Source: Nocardia sputorum
GTDB lineage: Bacteria; Actinomycetota; Actinomycetes; Mycobacteriales; Mycobacteriaceae
Reading direction: 5' to 3'
DNA length: 64,000 nucleotides
Assembly (NCBI RefSeq): GCF_027924405.1
Contig: NZ_AP026978.1
Location: forward strand, 1,860,001-1,924,000
The position numbers were made by a program, and so were the translations under genes. Below the pieces are notes generated by a model. The model was not told the origin of the DNA. It did no database searches and saw nothing but the letters and a program-made list of their open reading frames with translations. How positions within the stretch are numbered: position 1 is the stretch's first letter; each line of letters begins with the position of its first letter. Of this stretch, positions 36,323 through 37,927 are shown in pieces.

Positions 36323-36499
36323 CATGGCCGCCGAAGCCGCGAAGCGCGTGAATCCCTTTTCTCGAAGGCGACGAGCGCCCGGAGAAATGGCTTCCCGGCC
36401 GCCGTATCGGTGAATGACGAGGCGCTTCTCCATGTTTCGCCGGACCCCTCGCGGCGTATAATGAATATGGCTGTCGAGCCCGACCGCGAGGAGTAACAC

Positions 36500-36655
36500 G
36501 TGTATTCGCCGGTGGTTGTCGGGGCGAAAAATCATTTCTACCCGGAAATATTTATCCGGGTGATTTCGACGGCGTACCTGCGTGTTCCTCGTCATGGCGG
36601 CCGACGGCCCAGCTGCGCCCCCATGTCATGCGCGAAGGGAGGTGAACTACCGTGA
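36500..36655 (+). CDS. Putative 51-residue ORF upstream of and touching the Met-rich ORF
   Basis: A GTG start with GAGGAG a few bases before it. The product (VYSPVVVGAKNHFYPEIFIRV at the start, unrelated Arg/Cys-rich end) matches no family. Its TGA overlaps the next ATG as TGATG, an arrangement typical of coupled translation. It could be a leader peptide or chance. A TATAAT element lies about 40 bases upstream. Confidence 0.3.
   Translation: MYSPVVVGAKNHFYPEIFIRVISTAYLRVPRHGGRRPSCAPMSCAKGGELP
36541..36560. promoter_or_regulatory. 20-base A/T-centred palindrome
   Basis: CCCGGAAATATTTATCCGGG, with perfect 6-bp arms and an 8-base A/T centre. It stands out in a G+C-rich genome. It could be an operator or an RNA hairpin in the leader of the Met-rich micro-ORF. 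Confidence 0.35.
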
Positions 36656-36750
36656 TGGATCAGATGATGGGGATGGCACGCGACTGGTGGAACCGCATGT
36701 TCCCCGGCATGCCGATGCCGATGCTGCCGATGATGCCGATGATGTCGTAG
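36655..36750 (+). CDS. 31-residue methionine-rich micro-protein
   Basis: Twelve of 31 residues are Met. The first half (MDQMMGMARDWWNRMFPG) is amphipathic with two Trp. The second half is a Met-Pro repeat (MPMPMLPMMPMMS). A near-ideal GGGAGGTGA lies 10 bases upstream of the ATG; a GTG one codon earlier is out of frame. It is shorter than most gene finders accept. Met-Pro repeats can bind Cu(I) or Ag(I) or interact with membranes; that is inference. No family recognised. Confidence 0.55.
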   Translation: MDQMMGMARDWWNRMFPGMPMPMLPMMPMMS

Positions 36751-36977: not shown

Positions 36978-37487
36978 ATGACCGCAGATCCGCGACAGGC
37001 GAAGCGGCCGGTCAGTGCCGTGCTGGCCGGTCCGTACGGGCATCCGTTCCATCCCATCTTGGTCACCGTCCCGATCGGCGCCTGGGTCGCCAGTTTCGTG
37101 TTCGACCTCGCGTCCCGATTCGTCGACGATCCGGACTTCCTGGTCGAGGGCTCGTCGTGGTTGATCGCGATCGGCGTGCTGGGCGCCTTGGCCGCCGCGA
37201 CGATCGGGTTCCTCGATCTGCTCGCGATCCCCACCGGTACGCCTGCCTTCCGCACCGGTTTGCTGCACATGACCCTCAACCTGCTCGTGACCGCTGTCTA
37301 CGCGGTCGGCTTCGTCTGGCGGCAGGGCGCCGACAAGGCGGTCGCGGTCCCGGCCGGGCCGTTGGTGCTGTCGGCGGTCGGTCTGATGATATTGGCGATA
37401 TCCGGGTATCTCGGCGGCAAGCTGGCCTATCACTACGGCGTGCGAGTCGCCGACGAAACCACCCAGGCCGGCGGCTTCACCCACTGA
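36978..37487 (+). CDS. DUF2231 membrane protein
   Basis: A 169-residue membrane protein with about four helices. The family signature GHPFHPILVTVPIGAWVASFVFDLAS (residues ~21-46) contains two His that may bind a ligand or metal. A second conserved patch is TGLLHMTLNLLVTAVYAVGF. GCGAGGTG precedes the ATG. It lies 29 bases before another small membrane protein, so the two are probably co-transcribed. Function unknown. Confidence 0.8.
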   Translation: MTADPRQAKRPVSAVLAGPYGHPFHPILVTVPIGAWVASFVFDLASRFVDDPDFLVEGSSWLIAIGVLGALAAATIGFLDLLAIPTGTPAFRTGLLHMTLNLLVTAVYAVGFVWRQGADKAVAVPAGPLVLSAVGLMILAISGYLGGKLAYHYGVRVADETTQAGGFTH

Positions 37488-37516: not shown

Positions 37517-37927
37517 ATGGGCATCGCCGCATTGATCTTCTGGCTCCTCACCGCGGGCGGCGGTTTCTTCCTGCTCGGCACGTGGATCGCCCGAGGCGGC
37601 ACGCGTCAGCCGAATTCGACCCAGCTGCCGCCGCCGGTCCTGTTCGGTCACTTCGCGCTCGCCGTGGCCGGTCTGATCGTCTGGATCGTCTACCTCGCCG
37701 TCGACAGCACGGCGCTGGCCTGGACCGCGTTCGTCTTGCTGATCCCGGTCGCGCTCCTCGGGTTCGCGATGCTGCTGCGCTGGATCCCCGTCTACCGGGA
37801 CCGTTCGGCCGGAAGGACCGAACCTCCCGAGGGACACTTTCCCGTTGCCGTCGTCGCGGGTCACGGCGTACTCGCCGTGACGACTGTCGTGCTGGTGTTC
37901 CTTACCGCGCTCGGCGTCGGGAGCTGA
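37517..37927 (+). CDS. Small four-helix membrane protein
   Basis: A 136-residue protein with hydrophobic segments near residues 4-24, 41-64, 68-88 and 110-133. A conserved-looking LFGHFALAVAGLIVWIVYL stretch carries a His in the second segment, and another His precedes the fourth (VAGHGVLAV). AGGAGG precedes the ATG. Paired with the DUF2231 gene. No function known. Confidence 0.75.
   Translation: MGIAALIFWLLTAGGGFFLLGTWIARGGTRQPNSTQLPPPVLFGHFALAVAGLIVWIVYLAVDSTALAWTAFVLLIPVALLGFAMLLRWIPVYRDRSAGRTEPPEGHFPVAVVAGHGVLAVTTVVLVFLTALGVGS

Follow-up and report, generated by a model that had tools for sequence, protein, structure and literature searches.

A conserved methionine-rich micro-gene family of Nocardia with candidate SigB/SigF-type promoters

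The window, a 64,000-nucleotide stretch of DNA from Nocardia sputorum, contains an open reading frame of 31 codons at positions 36655-36750 which, judging from sequence comparison, is almost certainly a real translated gene. It belongs to a family so far found only in Nocardia, and the genome searches gave no convincing relative outside the genus. The comparisons themselves yield the family, its conservation as a protein, a strong Shine-Dalgarno (SD) site, recurrent GGGTA boxes and the gain or loss of compact units. On this basis we tentatively propose a Nocardia-only micro-gene under general-stress control, whose product would form an amphipathic helix at the membrane surface and use its methionines for metal or oxidant chemistry. 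The features of the locus are as follows.

36434..36459, forward strand: candidate SigB/SigF-type promoter, GTTT-N16-GCGTAT (consensus from excerpts of PMC4694148 and PMC8346170)
36466..36651, forward strand: putative 5' leader shared by the window-type copies, containing a conserved GAGGAG (36488-36493) and GTG (36500)
36500..36655, forward strand: upstream short open reading frame of 51 codons starting with GTG, its length and sequence varying among relatives
36637..36645, forward strand: SD site GGGAGGTGA, identical or nearly so across 11 window-type copies
36655..36750, forward strand: Met-rich microprotein gene, ATG start, 31 amino acids, stop TAG, assigned from its translation and family conservation
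36978..37487, forward strand: DUF2231 membrane protein (Pfam PF09990, E 4.7e-35), acquired or lost jointly with the peptide
37517..37927, forward strand: 'c0', a hydrophobic protein of 136 amino acids, without a Pfam family, standing in a pair with DUF2231

Translation of positions 36655-36750 (forward strand) gives the peptide MDQMMGMARDWWNRMFPGMPMPMLPMMPMMS, in which 12 of 31 residues are methionine. An in-frame GTG at 36652 is an alternative start that would yield 32 residues. The spacing after GGGAGGTGA is 6 nt to this GTG and 9 nt to the ATG at 36655. A near-ideal ribosome binding site had been part of the original prediction. In line with it, 15 of 35 non-redundant family copies match AGGAGGTGA over all 9 bases; among the control genes the same holds for 1 in 583, even though a bonus had favoured starts with an SD site when the control starts were picked. 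ARAGORN detected no tRNA or tmRNA in the window, and an Rfam scan of the window gave no family at the gathering threshold.

A single-sequence search of 60 relatives found close copies in the same genus, two of the genomes showing 93% identity. When a profile of 13 members was used to search 150 Nocardia genomes, 48 matched, and 57 regions outside the window were retrieved and read individually. One of these (L106 from genome G124) was judged a non-member and dropped from the family. Another (L105 from G128) is interrupted and was excluded from the peptide counts; here an inserted segment of about 2.2 kb, bearing an integrase-core transposase, cuts the micro-gene in two. A weak match in G113 (L107, E 0.015) was kept because the SD site, a GGGTA box and FPGMPM were all present. 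Counting the window's own copy, 46 of the 150 genomes carry 56 intact family members between them, and the transposon-split copy comes in addition. The intact copies encode 45 distinct peptides of 22 to 34 residues, with start codons chosen by script from the SD site, and the peptides average 40% Met. The family is missing from two thirds of the Nocardia genomes and is therefore dispensable.

The order-level search (397 genomes, 85 genera) returned two matches, the query and G150, both Nocardia. The phylum-level search (396 genomes, 236 genera) also returned two, the query and a non-convincing one at E 0.005, which was taken as chance because it falls within a 213-codon frame. There was no match among the plasmids of PLSDB and no confirmed match among the viruses of IMG/VR. 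For the four peptides searched against known families, NCBIfam gave none and Pfam a single match at E 0.24, and a profile of 38 peptides had no match among PDB sequences at E 10. Nothing in the open-licence literature on small proteins of Nocardia and mycobacteria or on Met-rich micropeptides was recognised as this family.

The core of the family carries the signature Q-x3-M-x-R-x2-W-N-x2-F-P-x-M-P-M. The 43 distinct 19-codon cores form 903 pairs with a pN/pS of 0.34; for the 506 closer ones the value is 0.28. All these pairs are non-independent and offer only about 8 synonymous sites each. The core Arg is invariant while being encoded by five codons, and the Pro of FP is invariant via three. 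Methionines at -2, +10 and +12 relative to this Arg were present in all 43 distinct cores, the last two forming an MxM thioether motif kept by selection, and the hydrophobic core positions -5, -1 and +2 are variable. Changes in tail length within the window's subfamily are in-frame blocks of 9 or 3 nt, and frame disruption in close relatives, which the original prediction had named as a refutation, appeared in none of the other 10 copies of the window type. Directed pairwise BLAST alignments between copies, 666 in all and restricted to 80-135 nt, placed the median borders of homology at -14 relative to the start and -2 relative to the stop codon's end; the length filter itself favours such borders. 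Read in this way, the micro-gene is conserved as a protein. A chance open reading frame, which had been called unlikely from the start, is largely ruled out by the 93% relatives, the occurrence in 46 of 150 genomes, the pN/pS values and the homology borders.

The 14-residue stretch from Q to F scored as an amphipathic helix against shuffled sequences in 43 of the 45 distinct peptides, and it is amphipathic rather than plainly transmembrane. AlphaFold2, given ten sequences, predicted a helix at residues 2-16 with block pLDDT values of 87 and 93 and a pTM of 0.43. The earlier description of an amphipathic, W-containing half followed by a Met-Pro half was thus borne out. The Met-Pro repeat itself is mainly a trait of the window's subfamily, and the family-wide signature is instead the helix plus FPxMPM. 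A near-neutral amphipathic helix of such size suggests a location on the membrane surface, with chances about even. As Met is invariant at places where Leu or Ile would pack equally well, a need for the thioether is suggested. A thioether role in metal or redox chemistry, either soft-metal binding through MxM as in Mets motifs or the trapping of oxidants, is possible, if doubtful; contacts between proteins would account just as well for a hydrophobic helix and thioethers. Binding to soft metals or membranes, as the original prediction had suggested, is plausible. MymT-like metallothioneins carry several Cys residues. This Cys-rich trait is absent here: the window peptide contains neither Cys nor His, and Cys occurs in 17 of the 45 distinct peptides, one in each.

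Two known copper systems bear comparison with the peptide. CopM, a DUF305 protein of Synechocystis, binds Cu(I) according to the sections of PMC4335983 consulted; like the peptide it is rich in Met, and in one genomic context a DUF305 gene uses the peptide's promoter. CopM differs in being a periplasmic protein of 196 amino acids that has His, whereas the peptide has no DUF305 domain, no evident signal sequence and no His. The Mets-motif copper peptides, such as the N-terminus of Ctr1, share the MxM thioether motif, as far as the excerpt of PMC9117721 describes them. In contrast to the Ctr1 N-terminus, the peptide is a free-standing microprotein without a transporter domain.

Upstream of the family genes a GGGTA box at -60 to -42 was present in 22 of 35 non-redundant copies, compared with 36 of 628 control genes. 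The controls were the other called genes of the same regions, with GGGTA tested across -62 to -25, and the contrast looks larger than it is because some control genes lie inside operons and need no promoter. Dinucleotide shuffles gave a mean of 1.3 in 35. A G..T box stood 13-17 nt ahead of GGGTA in 17 of the 35 family upstream regions and in 37 of 628 controls; 13 of the 35 had no GGGTA at -60 to -42. The genome encodes five sigma factors of the SigB/F/G type above the family cut-off. In the parts of the two sources drawn on here, SigF promoters of M. smegmatis follow GTTT-N14-19-GGGTA (PMC4694148), and promoters of Streptomyces SigB homologues combine a GNNT-type -35 element with GGGTA (PMC8346170). 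The boxes of the family resemble both, and among the SigF/SigB regulon genes in the same parts of PMC4694148 and PMC8346170 none of the peptide's size or composition was noticed. From these boxes, control of the family by a SigB/F-type factor seems probable.

For the window's own copy the same control could go either way on its sequence. Its -10 element, GCGTAT, is one base off GGGTAT and stands roughly 200 nt ahead of the peptide; transcription would start near 36466. Ten of the 11 window-type copies have G(C/A/G)GTA at -46 from the conserved GAGGAG-GTG. This GAGGAG-GTG (36500) thus sits at the family's usual promoter-box distance, and the open reading frame there is non-conserved; the element may be a leader, a regulatory open reading frame or the remains of a lost first copy. 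The leader also contains an inverted repeat, ACCCGGA-N8-TCCGGGT (36540-36561), which is present in the window, nearly so in L054, and absent from the other aligned relatives. Elsewhere in the family, four copies (L093, L099, L101 and L104) have a small GCCCA-loop-TGGG hairpin just before the SD site, and the counterpart in L100, CTCA-loop-TGAG, looks compensatory. Some copies, for example L090, terminate in a stem followed by T residues, resembling a terminator.

In the window the peptide is preceded by DUF6390, a NicO nickel transporter and hydrogenase maturation genes (a HycI-type protease, two HypC and HypF). It is followed after 228 nt by DUF2231, then by c0 and, on the opposite strand, by lexA. 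The gap of about 1.7 kb between DUF6390 and lexA consists of the promoter, leader, peptide, DUF2231 and c0. Three related genomes (G023, G069 and G070) have lexA within about 80-85 nt of DUF6390, and in G152 the two are separated by other DNA, lexA following within some 490 nt; none of the four has the peptide block. Judging from these empty sites, the whole set from promoter to c0 is gained or lost as a single block. In G152 (L196) the gap has a different short open frame where the peptide block would be. In all nine other DUF6390 loci inspected the peptide was absent within the stretch examined; 10 of 30 DUF6390 loci and 8 of 24 DUF305 loci were inspected for empty sites. The position just after the hydrogenase locus, which the original prediction had noted, therefore looks incidental. 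A hydrogenase accessory is ruled out by these empty sites together with the 46 of 57 family loci that lie in contexts other than the window's.

Neighbouring gene families define at least 20 contexts, a low count obtained by single linkage. One of them combines TetR and DUF305. In L164 and L166 of this context a GCATA-N-GGGTA promoter and GAGGAGG lead straight into DUF305 without the peptide, and in L154, L156, L159, L160 and L165 the peptide ORF lies between the promoter and DUF305. An upstream GGGTA box was found at 2 of 20 DUF305 loci scanned. On the chromosome and the second contig of G150 the copies lie in a near-identical unit, with 280 nt in common at 91%. The second contig, of 175 kb, carries two copies, L097 and L098, which have matching surroundings and stand about 50 kb apart in opposite orientation. 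A mobile element with terminal repeats was rejected, as terminal inverted repeats were not seen, but the unit may be mobile by other means.

A second type of unit, in which an HTH regulator, DUF2231, c0 and GTP cyclohydrolase I precede the peptide, is complete in L093 and L101. L099 has only c0 and the cyclohydrolase, and L071 has remnants of DUF2231 and c0. Another reading makes the peptide a partner of a single membrane protein (DUF2231/c0), or its regulator, and involves no metal or redox chemistry. It adjoins these genes in two unit types and forms one moving block with them in the window's context. Twenty-eight genomes have both peptide and DUF2231/c0 (p 2e-5, or 0.007 excluding window-type genomes), values that ignore ancestry and were obtained with 48 peptide genomes, including the later-dropped G124. 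Most contexts, however, lack DUF2231/c0, and a motif scan of 20 additional loci carrying DUF2231 and/or c0 found no peptide at any of them; one (L134) ends soon after c0, and three (L142, L143 and L148) have one complete member of the pair only. DUF2231/c0 as a constant partner is ruled out by these 20 loci, although the genomes overlap, and a partner or regulator role free of metal or redox chemistry is unlikely. Upstream of several DUF2231 genes (L133-L152, L093 and L101) there is a palindrome, CCAAT...ATTGG, which may serve as operator for the divergently oriented HTH gene. GGGTA occurred within 170 nt upstream of DUF2231 in 9 of 21 cases, a count without a chance level.

Slightly less probable still is a type I toxin, in which a short peptide acting on membranes is normally kept silent by antisense RNA. 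The size of 22-34 amino acids and the amphipathic helix would fit, as would the many contexts, the patchy occurrence with several copies in some genomes, and the two copies on the second contig of G150. TisB and Lpt, both of 29 amino acids, resemble the peptide in length and predicted membrane helix, as given in the portions of PMC11449926 and PMC6811638 used here. In contrast to these toxins, the family averages two Met in five residues, and a scan for opposite-strand promoters at 35 copies found no antisense gene: sigma-70-like sites were present on the opposite strand in 13 of 35 copies, with 13.2 expected from shuffles in this crude test. The SD site is moreover very strong and was not hidden in most of the folds seen.

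It is very unlikely that the peptide is a leader whose translation regulates the next gene. It is the first open reading frame between promoter and DUF305 in the TetR-DUF305 context and lies ahead of DUF2231 in the window, but 15 of 35 non-redundant copies are followed by a gene on the opposite strand, no downstream same-strand gene is fixed, and conservation acts at the level of the peptide, beyond codons alone. Terminator-like stems also follow some copies. As a general explanation a leader is ruled out by the opposite-strand genes and by the differing next genes of the 20 or more contexts. That the RNA rather than the peptide is the functional product is highly improbable: hairpins flank the ORF on both sides in some copies and the near-identical 280-nt unit occurs at two places in G150, but the low pN/pS, the in-frame changes of length, the closeness of SD site and stop to the homology borders and the absence of an Rfam match at the gathering threshold all speak for a protein.

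According to the stress-related reading that we prefer, the product would be made under general-stress control of the SigB/SigF type. It would lie on the membrane surface as a short, predicted amphipathic alpha-helix, ended by F-P and followed by a Met-Pro-Met tail. Its methionines, three of them invariant, would most likely bind Cu(I) or another soft metal, or else take up oxidants. The peptide would act beside envelope stress proteins, with DUF2231/c0 as putative partners in the window and a DUF305 lipoprotein elsewhere. Several results speak against this reading: the 13 upstream regions lacking GGGTA in place, the variant and distant -10 element of the window's copy, the 20 DUF2231/c0 loci with no peptide, the low count of GGGTA boxes at DUF305 loci, the lack of Cys and His in the window peptide, and the family's dispensability. 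A more specific version, which we consider improbable as a whole, is a genus-restricted plug-in micro-gene whose unit spans about 200-280 bp, with a stress promoter, strong SD site, 22-34 codons and terminator, and that settles in many loci and whose helix, with a three-Met site for Cu(I)/Ag(I) or for trapping oxidants, serves envelope stress proteins of the DUF2231 and DUF305 types.

Microproteins of fewer than 35 residues easily escape gene calling. The sharp signature, the invariant residues, including three methionines, the natural empty sites and the promoter class make the role of this family directly testable. Should these methionines prove to bind copper or to trap oxidants, the family would represent a minimal thioether membrane peptide linked to the general stress response.
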